The notes under the pieces: generated by a model
Seen by the model: the letters and a program-made list of their open reading frames with translations, nothing else
Told to the model about the DNA's origin: nothing
Database searches by the model: none
From: Symmachiella dynata
GTDB lineage: Bacteria; Planctomycetota; Planctomycetia; Planctomycetales; Planctomycetaceae
Assembly: GCF_007747995.1 (NCBI RefSeq)
Contig: NZ_CP036276.1
Location: forward strand, 4,827,001-4,891,000
Length of the DNA stretch: 64,000 bases
Reading direction: 5' to 3'
Program-made: the position numbers and the translations under genes
Part shown: in pieces, positions 3,168-64,000 of the stretch
Layout: each line of letters starts with the position of its first letter
Position numbering within the stretch: position 1 is the stretch's first letter

Positions 3168-5588
3168 ATGGCTGACAAAACATCTCACGAATCACTGAGA
3201 CCGGAAATCCCCGCCGTGCTGACGCGGCTGCAGGGACGAATCCGCCGCTACGTCTTTTGGGAAGGCATGGCGACGGTGTTGGTGGTGTTGAGCCTGTTTT
3301 TCTGGGTCAGTTTGGCTTTGGATTACGGGTTTTCCGTGATTTTCAAAATGGAATTCTCGCGCGATTTTCGGGTTGTCATCGCACTGATTGCCATTGGATT
3401 GGCGGTGGCAGCGCTGGTGACGCGCGTGCTGGCCCGCATGTTCCGCGACTTTCACTACGAGGCGTTGGCGCTGGTCCTCGAACGCCGTTTTCCACAACTG
3501 AATGACCGACTGATTACCAGTGTGCAACTGGCCAAACCGACGGCAGATCGTTCGCCGCTAACCGATGACATGCTGCATCGTGCGGTCGATGAAGTCGGCG
3601 ACATGGCCGATGGGTTGCCGCTGCGTGATGTGTTTGATTTTAGTCCCCTGAAAAAAGTAATGGCAGCGGTCGTGCTGCTGGCGGCCTCAATCATCGGATT
3701 TGCGATTGTTTTTCCCGGCGCGTTTACAACGTGGTACCACCGCAACGTGCTATTCGCCGATGAATTTTGGCCCCGCGCATCGGAGTTGGAATTGGTCGTC
3801 CTGGCCACCCCCGGCGAACGGGTGCGTCCGTTCCGCGATGGCGTTTACAAACATCCCCGCGGCGCGGATTTGACGTTACTGGCCAGCGTGCCGACGGGCA
3901 AAACCACTCCCGAGCGCGTGCGGATGAATTACCGATTCAAAAACCGTAGTGGCGGCGGGGACGGTTACTTTTCACAGTTGGGCGAATCGCAATTTCGCAT
4001 GACCGTCAAAGGGCTACAACACTCCTCGGAGCTAACGATCACCGGTGGCGACTACTACAATCGCCGTCCCTATGTGATCGAAGTCGTCGATGCGCCTGTC
4101 GTGGATCGCATTGTCTTGGACAGCCTTTACCCTCCGTATACGCGATTGAACGAGGTCAATGCCGATGGCACGGACTTTGTCCGCACGCCGGTCGCTGTTC
4201 AAGCAACGCGGCACGCATTGCCGGTGGGGACCGATGTGATCTTTCGGGCCGATAGCAACAAGCCGTTGACCGCCGCCCGCATCCAAACCGCATCATTCAC
4301 GCTCGACATCAATCCCGAGCAAGCCACGCTGATGATTCCATCCACCACCGAACAAGCTGATCAAGTGATCCCCATCGCGGCGGACCTTGCGAGCACATTT
4401 ATTGACTCAGAGGGCCAACGCATCGCCATTCCGTTGATCATCACCGGAGAAGCTGCGCCGCAGTTATTGACGGCGGAGGGGGAAGTCCGCTGGCCGTTGC
4501 CACTGCCGGTCGAATCGTCGCTGCTGATTGAACTGACCGACCAAGATGAAGTTGTCAGCCAGCAGCCAACGCGATTGGATCTAAGCGGCATCGTCGACGA
4601 GCCGCCGGTGGTGGAGACACGTCCTAAAGGAATCCGCAATGCGATCACCCGCCAAGCCGTGATTCCCATCGAAGGCAAAATCACCGACGACTACGGAATT
4701 GCCGAAACCAGGTTTGAGTACACGATCAACCAAGAGGCAGAATTTCGCCAACACCCCTTCAATTCCTCAGCCAATATGGACCGCGAGTTCGACGTCGACG
4801 AATCGTTTGACGTGCTGAATCTGGATTTGGCCTTGGGACAAAAACTAACGTTATCCGTGGTGGCGACCGATGGGGACAATTTGAATGGCCCCCACGAAAA
4901 ACGGAGCGAAGCGACGGTCTTTGAAATCGTCAGCCCTGACGAATTGCTATCGCTGATCAGCGCCCGAGAATTGAATCTGCGGAATCGTTTTGAACAAATT
5001 TTGCGAGAAGTCCAAGCACGGCGAACCGATCTGAGTGCTCACCGGGCAAAACTGCTCGCTGCCGAACCGTTGCGGGGAACGACTCCGCCGCCGGAACAGG
5101 CTGACGAGGTCCGCAAGCAACTCCGCGAACTAGACATTTCGGTGGAAACTGTCGCACAGCGTTCTCTGTTGGACATTCGAAAAAACGCCAACGAAACAGC
5201 TTCGATCGAAGAGGCTTTTGCGGATATCCATGCGGAATTGATCAATAACCGGGTCAAAGCCCAACGAATGCTGGACCGTATCGAAGAAGGCATCTTAAAA
5301 CCTCTTAACCTGTTGAACACATTCCACTATAATAACGTGGACGAGTCGTTGGGCCTGTTCAAGCTCGCATTGGAACGCCAGCAAAGTCCTTACGAACCGT
5401 TGGATAAGTGCATCGCCGATTTGGACAGCACGATCGCTCAGATTGAAAAGATCTTGGCGGCAATGCTCAAATTGGCGACAATCAACGAAGCCCGAGAACT
5501 GCTGCGGGCTATACTTGAAAAACAAGAAGAACTGAAAAAGCAAACCGAACAAGAACGAAAACGTAAGTTGATTGAAAGTCTGAAATAA
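3168..5588 (+). CDS. DUF4175-like membrane protein with long coiled coil
   Basis: An 806-residue protein. ATG at 3168 is preferred to the in-frame TTG just before it. Three hydrophobic segments are visible in the first 200 residues (around VLVVLSLFFWVSLAL, VVIALIAIGLAVAAL and AVVLLAASIIGFAIV). A beta-rich extracytoplasmic region of about 400 residues follows, then a highly charged helical region ending in a Lys/Glu/Gln-rich coiled coil. This is the layout of the DUF4175-type proteins found in BatA/VWA operons. It follows the VWA gene by 46 bases in the same direction, and the coiled-coil end suggests a partnership with the next product, also a coiled-coil protein. The molecular function is unknown. 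Confidence 0.75.
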   Translation: MADKTSHESLRPEIPAVLTRLQGRIRRYVFWEGMATVLVVLSLFFWVSLALDYGFSVIFKMEFSRDFRVVIALIAIGLAVAALVTRVLARMFRDFHYEALALVLERRFPQLNDRLITSVQLAKPTADRSPLTDDMLHRAVDEVGDMADGLPLRDVFDFSPLKKVMAAVVLLAASIIGFAIVFPGAFTTWYHRNVLFADEFWPRASELELVVLATPGERVRPFRDGVYKHPRGADLTLLASVPTGKTTPERVRMNYRFKNRSGGGDGYFSQLGESQFRMTVKGLQHSSELTITGGDYYNRRPYVIEVVDAPVVDRIVLDSLYPPYTRLNEVNADGTDFVRTPVAVQATRHALPVGTDVIFRADSNKPLTAARIQTASFTLDINPEQATLMIPSTTEQADQVIPIAADLASTFIDSEGQRIAIPLIITGEAAPQLLTAEGEVRWPLPLPVESSLLIELTDQDEVVSQQPTRLDLSGIVDEPPVVETRPKGIRNAITRQAVIPIEGKITDDYGIAETRFEYTINQEAEFRQHPFNSSANMDREFDVDESFDVLNLDLALGQKLTLSVVATDGDNLNGPHEKRSEATVFEIVSPDELLSLISARELNLRNRFEQILREVQARRTDLSAHRAKLLAAEPLRGTTPPPEQADEVRKQLRELDISVETVAQRSLLDIRKNANETASIEEAFADIHAELINNRVKAQRMLDRIEEGILKPLNLLNTFHYNNVDESLGLFKLALERQQSPYEPLDKCIADLDSTIAQIEKILAAMLKLATINEARELLRAILEKQEELKKQTEQERKRKLIESLK

Positions 5589-62372: not shown

Positions 62373-63662
62373 CTAGCTGCGCCAATCGATGCGATCAAAG
62401 ATGGCCTGTAGCTTGCGTCCGCGATCGGGATGGATGCTCTGGACATGGCCGATGCGACCGCGCAGGTGCGCGGCAAAGTCCGCCCGCTGTTCACGGTTTT
62501 GCGTCGCTGCTCCGTGCCGGACGCAGTTCGTCAAAATCGCTTTGAGACGGTCGTAATCTTTGCGAGAAACATTCAGCCGCTCATTGACCACCACACCCGT
62601 GACACGTTGCTGTTGATTATTGCGAACAACTTTCCGTTTTCCGGCGTGAACGGTAAAGCGTTCGGACCGCACGATCTTTGTGACCAGCGGAATAAAAACA
62701 TTCAGACTATCGATTAGGTGTTGATCGCCCGAAAAGGTGAGGTCGTCGGCGTAGCGGGTGTAGGTGGCACCGAAAGCGCGGGCCATGCCGGCCAAACGCA
62801 GGTCCAATGCATAACAAGACAGATTGGCCAATGCGGGCGAGGTCGGGGCGCCTTGTGGCAAATGTCGCGATAAATAGGGACGGACCACGCTCCGATCACC
62901 GCCCGGCGCCGGCAGGCGCTCAGGTGGCAACGCAGTGGTTAGCCGTCCTAGCCAAATGGCTGCCTCGCGAGAAAATCCAATGCTGCGAAAAATAGCGACT
63001 ACGCGTGAGAAGCTAACGTTGGCATAGAAATTCTCGAGGTCGAATTTCAAAACCACGCGCTGCCCCACGTGCGGTTGGGCATTGGTACAAATCGATCGGC
63101 CGGCGACAAAACCATGTGCTGCGTTGTGTAGTGGAATCCGATCAAGAATTTCACGAAGGATTTTTCGTTGGATCGCCTTGAGGATCGGTTTGGGCGCCTC
63201 AACGAGCCGATACCCACCGCCCCGTTTTTTTAACCAACTGTAATGATAATGGGCCTGCGGAACATGCGCTGCGCGGCCACCATCGTCAAAGCGATGAATC
63301 AGCCATGCCAAGCGGCCGCAGGGCATCTCCAGCCAATTAGCGATGTCGCTGGGCGTGCAAAGCTGGGGCAAGCCGAATTGGTGGAGACGTTCGGGGTTAC
63401 TATCTTTGCTGAGATCGCGGTATTCGCCGTAACCTCCAAAACGCGCAAAGCGGTAGGGAGATTCGGCGGATTCCTCACCAGCATCCTCTGCTGGATCTGT
63501 GGCACGCGGGCCTTGCCGGCGACGCAAGGGGACCATGTAGATGTGTCCCAAACGGCCGCGACGGCGACGGAGTTTCCCACGCCGTTCATTAGCGCGATCC
63601 TGCCCCGTGGGGGGCGTTTTTTTCAATCCGAGCCAGCGGAGAATGGAATCGAAGAAGCTCAT
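62373..63662 (-). CDS. Retron-type reverse transcriptase with long N-terminal extension
   Basis: 429 residues from ATG 63662; an in-frame TTG two codons earlier is possible. RT hallmarks in order: the retron NAxxH motif as NAAH (180-183) within LHNAAHGFVAGRSICTNA, first catalytic Asp208 in KFDLENFY, QGAPTSP (270-276), YADD (304-307), HAGKRK (339-344) and the retron VTG (354-356). The thumb region ends near FDRIDW. A 130-160 residue N-terminal part is unusual for short retron RTs: a basic Arg-rich stretch, then FGLPQLCTPSDIANWLEMP and KKRGGGYRLVEAPKP. I recall a similar layout in myxobacterial Mx162-type RTs. It should copy a structured RNA into msDNA; retrons act in anti-phage defence. No effector gene was recognised. 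Confidence 0.88.
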   Translation of the reverse strand: MSFFDSILRWLGLKKTPPTGQDRANERRGKLRRRRGRLGHIYMVPLRRRQGPRATDPAEDAGEESAESPYRFARFGGYGEYRDLSKDSNPERLHQFGLPQLCTPSDIANWLEMPCGRLAWLIHRFDDGGRAAHVPQAHYHYSWLKKRGGGYRLVEAPKPILKAIQRKILREILDRIPLHNAAHGFVAGRSICTNAQPHVGQRVVLKFDLENFYANVSFSRVVAIFRSIGFSREAAIWLGRLTTALPPERLPAPGGDRSVVRPYLSRHLPQGAPTSPALANLSCYALDLRLAGMARAFGATYTRYADDLTFSGDQHLIDSLNVFIPLVTKIVRSERFTVHAGKRKVVRNNQQQRVTGVVVNERLNVSRKDYDRLKAILTNCVRHGAATQNREQRADFAAHLRGRIGHVQSIHPDRGRKLQAIFDRIDWRS

Positions 63663-63668
63663 ATGCAA

Positions 63669-63980
63669 TTACGCCGCCGTTACTCGTGCCCGGTGCGGAC
63701 GAATGATTCTCCAACGTCCGCAAGATAACAGCCCGGCCGACGAATCACTGCCTGGTGACAGTCGGAAGCGACTGCCGGTGTTGATTCTTGACCATTCGAG
63801 AAATTTGCGCCGGAGGCGAATGTAGGGATTGTTCGTTGCACGATGTGCGAAACGCACGTCCTTGGACGCGGCGCCTGTCTCCTCAATGGGAACTTCGACT
63901 TCAAAAACTCCAGCCATGAAAAAACCATGACCGGCGGGCGGAACAACTGCTTCCTGTGGCGAATCGTGACTCACGTGCAA
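63669..63980 (-). CDS. Doubtful 103-codon frame abutting the RT gene
   Basis: An open frame from TTG 63980 (inside the loop of the terminal hairpin) to a TAA that immediately precedes the possible TTG start of the RT. An internal ATG at 63917 would give 82 residues. The sequence (EVEVPIEETGAASKDVRF, IRLRRKFLEWSRINTGSRF) is not recognised. It has no evident ribosome site and covers the same bases as several stable hairpins. Either it is a small partner protein translated just ahead of the RT, or the frame is fortuitous and the region is the retron RNA. Confidence 0.25.
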   Translation of the reverse strand: MHVSHDSPQEAVVPPAGHGFFMAGVFEVEVPIEETGAASKDVRFAHRATNNPYIRLRRKFLEWSRINTGSRFRLSPGSDSSAGLLSCGRWRIIRPHRARVTAA

Positions 63981-64000
63981 TCCACGTGAGTCACGATTCA
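63695..64000 (-). ncRNA. Candidate retron msr-msd leader region (extends past the window)
   Basis: The 340 bases upstream of the RT hold no clear gene but several stems. On the plus-strand coordinates: GCGGACG/CGTCCGC (63695-63701 with 63715-63721); a two-part stem with GAATCA/TGATTC outside (63742-63747 with 63782-63787) and CAGTCG/CGACTG inside (63759-63764 with 63769-63774); GTGCG/CGCAC around a three-base loop (TTT on the minus strand) near 63845-63857; and a perfect 17-bp inverted repeat at 63961-63999. Retron RNAs lie just upstream of the RT and contain such short stems plus a long msd stem. The a1/a2 pairing and the branching G could not be fixed, so borders are approximate. Confidence 0.4.
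63961..63999. repeat. Perfect 17-bp inverted repeat at the window edge
   Basis: GAATCGTGACTCACGTG (63961-63977) and its exact complement CACGTGAGTCACGATTC (63983-63999) with loop CAATC. Could be an msd-type stem of the retron RNA or the terminator of a gene beyond the window. Confidence 0.9.

Follow-up and report, generated by a model that had tools for sequence, protein, structure and literature searches.

What does a retron do when no effector gene can be recognised beside its reverse transcriptase? The question arises at the end of the window, the 64,000-nucleotide stretch of DNA analysed here (bases 4827001-4891000 of the 7.77-Mb single-contig genome of Symmachiella dynata), where a reverse transcriptase (RT) gene is read from the minus strand and its upstream DNA runs past position 64000. 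Most studied retrons have an effector, and some retrons without a clear link to proximal effector genes may have other functions, according to the accessible part of PMC8867640. A preliminary description of the window had named the element a retron and, seeing none of the standard effectors, had left three places where one might lie: beyond 64000, within the long N-terminal extension of the RT, or among the small frames nearby. The features on which the following argument relies are collected in Table 1.

Table 1. Features of the retron locus, in window positions; positions above 64000 lie past the end of the window
Feature	Position	Strand	Remarks
Retron RT gene	62373-63668	minus	open frame, profiles, fold; 431 aa if read from TTG, 429 aa from the more probable ATG at 63662
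Basic linker, predicted disordered	63486-63614	minus	codons 17-59; pLDDT <50
Hydrophobic N-terminal segment, MSFFDSILRWLG	63627-63662	minus	codons 1-12 from ATG; predicted helix at residues 3-10
T-run after a2, terminator-like	63919-63924	minus	
a2 arm	63927-63945	minus	partner a1 at ~64085-64103, past window end
msr-msd RNA, 3' part	63927-64000	minus	only part inside window; remainder past 64000
msd hairpin, 19-bp stem	63959-64000 in window (to 64001)	minus	from the fold of the window's RNA
Putative priming G	~64083, just after a1	minus	past window end
Promoter-like TTGACC and TACGAT	~64134-64139 and ~64112-64117	minus	past window end

A retron-type reverse transcriptase

The RT probably has 429 residues, read from the ATG that stands just after the TTG at 63668, because conserved sequence starts after that ATG. 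In the 431-residue numbering, FGLPQL begins at residue 98, NAAH at 182, QGAPTSP at 272, YADD at 306 and VTG at 356; all the motifs listed in the preliminary description are present, its NAAH at 180-183 and VTG at 354-356 being counted from the ATG. Both NAxxH and VTG belong to the motifs of retron-class RTs.

In Pfam the protein matches RVT_1 (E 7.6e-22), and its best models in PADLOC are RT_other (440 bits), RT_outgroup (retron, 416 bits) and RT_XIII (362 bits), the first two matches spanning only residues 88-430 and 95-429, so that the N-terminus lies outside both. Three retron models of NCBIfam score 186-194 bits (best 193.7) against 38.6 bits for the group II model, all under their own cut-offs, which for group II is 300 bits. 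Sequences of the PDB gave 14 matches at E <=1e-5, 12 of them named as retron RTs or retron proteins; the other two are named only as RNA-directed DNA polymerase, and one entry of each carries a retron title. An AlphaFold2 model of the RT (mean pLDDT 89.3) has the Ec86 retron RT as its closest fold, and the Foldseek search with this model returned retrons at every one of ranks 1-18, with a best E of 6.0e-23 compared with 4.6e-12 for the group II intron RT at rank 19, while the first RT of a diversity-generating retroelement (DGR) appeared at rank 25. Profile scores and Foldseek ranks thus place the enzyme outside the group II and DGR classes, and motifs, profiles and fold agree on the retron class.

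Measured against G001, the closest relative of the window species, the whole RT has a dN/dS of 0.08, with 0.27 in the linker and 0.056 in the core. As far as substitutions and similarity can tell, these data show a retron-type RT under purifying selection.

Anatomy of the msr-msd RNA

The DNA upstream of the RT had been described as rich in stems and without a convincing gene, and both points hold. A 177-nt RNA at 63927-64103 (L003:4928-5104, minus strand), about 260 nt upstream of the RT, folds at -97.5 kcal/mol (z = -8.0), and 0 of 200 shuffles folded as low. When the upstream regions of 26 loci of the clade to which this RT belongs, here RT-A, were compared by blastn, they revealed a common non-coding block, and complementary a1/a2 arms are present in all 23 loci where the block was anchored. 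The arm scores have a median of 47.0, against a mean of 26.7 and a maximum of 43.0 for mononucleotide shuffles (n=460); 18 of the 23 exceed the shuffle maximum and five fall below it, the lowest at 29.5. In the alignment across 23 relatives the fold comprises an a1/a2 stem and two hairpins, one conserved and one formed by the msd, and 25 of its 35 pairs have changed on both sides. The cells paired on this consensus structure amount to 94.0%, against 78.9% in shuffled alignments and 38.9-44.4% with the partners slid, and the covariation score is 0.466 against 0.187 (0/500 shuffles as high), values to be read with the caution that a structure taken from the same alignment favours the fit and that kin sequences can beat shuffles without structure. 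The CAAG(C/A) that follows a1 is nearly invariant in the alignment and resembles variants given in the accessible part of a review (PMC6868368). Identity to the closest relative of the window species is 97.7% for the RNA, 79.7% for the RNA-RT spacer and 90.5% for the RT gene.

Comparison of these sequences shows an msr-msd RNA: its a1/a2 stem covaries, its msr hairpin is conserved and an msd hairpin completes the fold. A covariance model built on it, R1, recovers the structure upstream of the RT in relatives, where the preliminary description had expected one. An msr-msd RNA near an RT that is nearest to retron RTs in profiles and fold is what characterises a retron, and the initial identification of the element stands. 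Searches at this locus and at that of a second RT of the same genome gave no Rfam match up to E = 1 and no tRNA gene.

Perfect pairing throughout the msd stem is not usual: the longest perfect run has a median of 8 bp (range 4-18). As a rule the stem is also conserved less well than the scaffold, for the most part through gradual change (medians in g56: scaffold 0.91, stem 0.87), in a comparison from which five of 57 RNAs were dropped as unsplittable and in which the stem identities of L222, L225, L228 and L229, split at a wrong 3' anchor, are inflated. A hypervariable msd insert was considered and rejected: among the 110 of 200 within-genus pairs whose scaffold identity is at least 0.9, stem identity is below 0.6 in one and below 0.65 in seven. 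In one genome (G106; L080, contig G106:C274) tandem RNAs at 3933-4081 and 4252-4400, on the minus strand, precede a single RT, their scaffolds 98% and their msd stems 43% identical, which hints that msd hairpins are replaceable as units.

Distribution and inheritance

R1, whose training left out L057 and L059, locates the RNA ahead of the RT at 25 of the 26 RT-A loci; matches on the opposite strand, which stem from the palindromic shape of the RNA, were left uncounted. Within the family of the window species the RNA occurs in 107 of 170 genomes and in 42 of 58 genera, mostly as one copy, and the RT (E <=1e-90) in 105 of the 170. Both are present in 103 genomes, the RNA only in four, the RT only in two and neither in 61 (Fisher p 1.2e-38, kinship ignored), the 103 including one genome (G095) whose RT (48% identity) and RNA (39.4 bits) belong to another clade. 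The counts of exceptions need some correction. G113, counted as RNA-only, does have an RT beside the RNA that the family search missed (its contig is identical to L127), and the other three RNA-only genomes (G087, G089, G125) are less than 90% complete; of the two RT-only genomes, G069 has an RT of another clade (45% identity) preceded by a 39.2-bit RNA when searched alone, and the RT match in G108 begins at residue 132. Across the phylum, strong RNA matches (E <=1e-12) were found in 17 of 294 genomes, all 17 of them in the same family.

These data bear on whether the element is still working. A decaying retron relic might be suspected where no effector gene is found alongside, yet an open frame with an intact YADD, a dN/dS of 0.08, compensatory changes in the RNA and both parts in 103 genomes make that reading barely credible.

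In a FastTree phylogeny of 121 RTs (midpoint root) the 41 RT-A rows stand on one side of a branch with a support of 97, and all 41 come from Planctomycetota records or from the family of the window species; outside lie the second RT of the window genome and RTs of Myxococcus, Pyxidicoccus, Burkholderiales, Acidobacteria and others. RT and rpoB distances correlate across 20 genomes (Mantel r 0.45, 0/5000; 0.41, 2/5000, with one genome per genus), while the two trees have six of 17 splits in common and three RT splits with support >=0.9 are missing from the rpoB tree. Strict vertical inheritance was considered and rejected on this level of split agreement; since distances correlate and splits conflict, inheritance looks mostly vertical, with conflict. 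Plasmid and phage records held no close copy of the RT, the best matches being 46% (plasmid) and 33% (phage) identical.

A domesticated retron without any part in defence, kept for a housekeeping role such as regulation, DNA repair or a task in the envelope, would fit much of this. It would be expected to sit, as the element does, in 42 of 58 genera of one family, mostly in single copy, with partial rpoB congruence and nothing closer than those distant matches on plasmids and phages, and at some of the loci its position looks ancestral, next to an M50 protease, a gene termed C3 and a MutL-like gene. Against this, absence from 61 of 170 family genomes means that the element is not essential, and the msd stem changes more quickly than the scaffold, in some cases abruptly, a pattern that also suits an arms race. 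We hold such domestication to be a possibility of the weaker kind. Wide spread and selection suit a long-kept function, and the 61 genomes without the element suit a dispensable, defence-like one.

The window genome also carries a second retron-type RT (L004:5143-6528; G000:C1:703142-704527), 44% identical to the first and belonging to the broad RT_other clade, before which the R1 score is not significant (13.8 bits, E 0.24). In 65 named non-RT-A loci (L132-L197, gaps at L157), R1 searched on the RT strand upstream of the RT gave matches in 46 at E <=0.1 and in 36 at E <=0.001, a few of them partial. Among three plasmid-borne relatives the RNA was found in one, from Burkholderia, and in neither Tsukamurella nor Methylobacterium. 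To judge from these matches, RTs of this wider clade in several phyla seem to have an RNA with the same architecture upstream.

The RNA as an independent unit

In 24 of 37 RNAs, as against 0.4% of random stretches, the 60 bases before a1 contain a promoter-like pair of boxes, TTGA(C/T) and, 14-21 bases further on, either TANNNT or CATAAT. The second box alone (TANNNT, at least 4 of 6 matches) is present in 27 of 37 (3.7% in random stretches) and a T-run after a2 in 22 of 37 (5.4%); the T-run and box tests were devised after the sequences had been inspected. In genus g4, RNA and RT lie on separate contigs in all three genomes. The three g4 RNAs (L075:5024-5189, L076:5057-5224 and L077:5070-5236) score 104.5 to 116 bits, and each lies between a sulfotransferase-like and a transporter-like gene, both named by eye; at the g4 RT loci (L054, L078, L079) R1 found no RNA, and the downstream gene C3 is kept. 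RNA and RT are also on separate contigs in four further genomes (G093, G104, G111, G132), whose assemblies are fragmented and have one or both parts near a contig end.

The promoter-like and terminator-like signals, together with the separation of the two parts in all three g4 genomes, indicate that the RNA is more than a leader of the RT gene. The opposing reading, in which it is a cis-acting leader of the RT messenger and no retron RNA, draws on the linked loci, where it lies just upstream on the same strand and in some cases overlaps the longest reading frame. It is contradicted by g4, where RNAs of that score are unlinked, and by the a1/a2 retron anatomy and the frequent T-run after a2, and we regard it as very improbable.

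Neighbouring genes and the search for an effector

Frame clustering over 42 loci, with names given partly by eye, recognised no adjoining effector at the RT-A loci. Beyond 64000 lie a divergent M50 protease (Pfam, 57.9 bits) and then glycerate-kinase-like and glycosyltransferase-like frames, the last two named by eye. Of the three places proposed in the preliminary description, the region past the window end has therefore yielded no recognisable effector, TOPRIM, NDT, PRTase and HTH included, and the small overlapping frames (clusters C13, C28, C29) recur only within the same genus. The third place, the extension of the RT itself, is a possible one and is the reading we prefer.

The recurrent neighbours of the 26 RT-A loci are the divergent M50 protease (12), C3 (10) and a MutL-like gene named by eye (4), counts that are lower bounds as some loci end at contig ends; cluster C1 consists mostly of frames that overlap the RT gene. 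The M50 protease, a divergent neighbour in 12 of 26 loci, is unlikely to be the effector. The downstream membrane-protein-like gene C3 was rejected in that role, as it also occurs in genomes that have no RT-A (G008, G009, G012, G027, G032) and is unlinked in the window genome. C3 (L041:6269-7072 and homologues) has no Pfam match above cut-off. Of 59 relatives 32 have it, and each of these belongs to the family of the window species. In the wider clade, the Burkholderia relative has no recognisable effector neighbour. On a Tsukamurella plasmid (L116, 4707-7054) a HAD-like gene stands directly downstream of an RT relative and an HTH gene comes next, an arrangement that may be an operon including an effector; more than one HTH gene lies in the vicinity.

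The element is probably a chromosomal retron of one protein and one RNA, without a dedicated effector gene. A classical tripartite retron could still be present if its effector were encoded elsewhere on the chromosome and kept inactive in trans by RT, RNA and msDNA. Effectors are typical of most studied retrons (PMC8867640, in the part accessible), g4 illustrates that the RNA itself can be unlinked from the RT, so that parts can be apart, and the hydrophobic N-terminal segment of the RT might be a docking site for a partner protein. The RT-A loci, however, have no recurrent neighbour that resembles an effector, and none was seen by eye at the three unlinked RNA loci; if toxin and antitoxin parts drifted apart, moreover, loss would easily separate them. 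An effector in trans is accordingly a rather unlikely arrangement in our estimation.

The RT N-terminus and a possible mode of action

A short hydrophobic segment (e.g. MGLFDFLLRLLG) was judged by eye to lie near the N-terminus of all 31 RT-A frames examined, each taken from the first start codon after the RNA, or from an ATG within 20 codons where that first codon was GTG or TTG; in L053, L058, L080 and L092 the segment begins 6 to 37 residues past the chosen start. In L046 and L059, from two genera, a longer stretch resembling a membrane span replaces it. An amphipathic helix was considered and is not shown, because only 5 of the 31 frames have a hydrophobic moment above that of shuffles at P <0.05, and 26 do not. 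Between the window species and G001 the first 16 codons, counted from the TTG, are unchanged; with neither silent nor amino-acid changes this pair is uninformative on selection there. The tree and the comparison of frames show the RT-A enzymes as one clade that shares a common type of N-terminus.

Our preferred reading starts from this shared segment. By analogy, it may hold the RT complex at the membrane, or at a partner protein, and it might conceivably be the output of the retron itself, acting on the membrane in place of a separate effector. The RNA would be transcribed alone from its own promoter and would fold, and the RT would bind the folded RNA, as known retrons suggest (PMC6868368, in the part accessible). 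The RT would then prime at the G after a1 and copy the msd into a hairpin DNA of perhaps 60-80 nt, a size estimated from the fold, while the N-terminal segment would place the complex at the membrane or partner. A phage that disturbed the msDNA might, at the most speculative step, cause that segment to exert a membrane effect. Taken as a whole, a membrane-tethered RT-msDNA complex with its output built into the RT, mostly vertical in the family, acting at the membrane through its N-terminal segment and served by a template RNA that is an independent gene able to work from another locus, is a tentative proposal. We read the retron more broadly as self-contained, mostly vertically inherited and probably membrane-associated.

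This planctomycete family is well suited to studying the role of retrons that lack an adjacent effector. It is a tractable case: 103 of 170 genomes have both RT and RNA, the R1 model locates the RNA, the parts are unlinked in genus g4, some relatives are free of the system, and the recurrent N-terminal segment lends itself to deletion.

Comparison with known retrons

The nearest company of the window RT is the RT_other/RT_outgroup clade, these being the best two models also for six of seven other RTs tested, among them those of Pyxidicoccus (L143) and Myxococcus (L171). RT-A differs from the rest of that clade by its separate position in the tree (support 97) and by its hydrophobic segment and disordered linker, whereas the N-terminal region of the others looks folded by eye. 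The score against RT_XIII, below those for RT_other and RT_outgroup, does not place the window RT in type XIII, whose N-terminal region differs; L074, which matches RT_XIII best, groups with RT-A in a midpoint-rooted tree whose root does not settle which is nearer. The closest solved fold is that of Ec86 (Eco1; 7v9x), at Foldseek E 6.0e-23, a TM of 0.83 over the target and 28% identity. Ec86 works by the same msr-msd principle. By the title of its entry, Ec86 was solved with a separate effector, and no such gene was found at RT-A loci.

Titles among the literature matches listed named no planctomycete retron and no membrane-anchored retron RT, and a 2020 retron classification, a 2021 review or a 1995 myxobacterial paper may already place the clade. 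In the accessible part of PMC6868368, the myxobacterial retrons Mx162 (Mxa1), Mx65 (Mxa2) and Sa163 (Sau1) are described with an extended RT N-terminus and an inferred vertical inheritance, and msDNA is recorded in 27 of 28 myxobacterial strains. To judge by that description, they share those two traits with RT-A. R1 gave 16.1 bits (E 0.057) at the Pyxidicoccus locus L143 and nothing at E 0.1 at the Myxococcus locus L171. Set beside these systems, the element described here is a genuine retron, distinctive in that no effector gene was found with it and in its family-wide spread, its autonomous RNA and the distinctive N-terminus of its RT.
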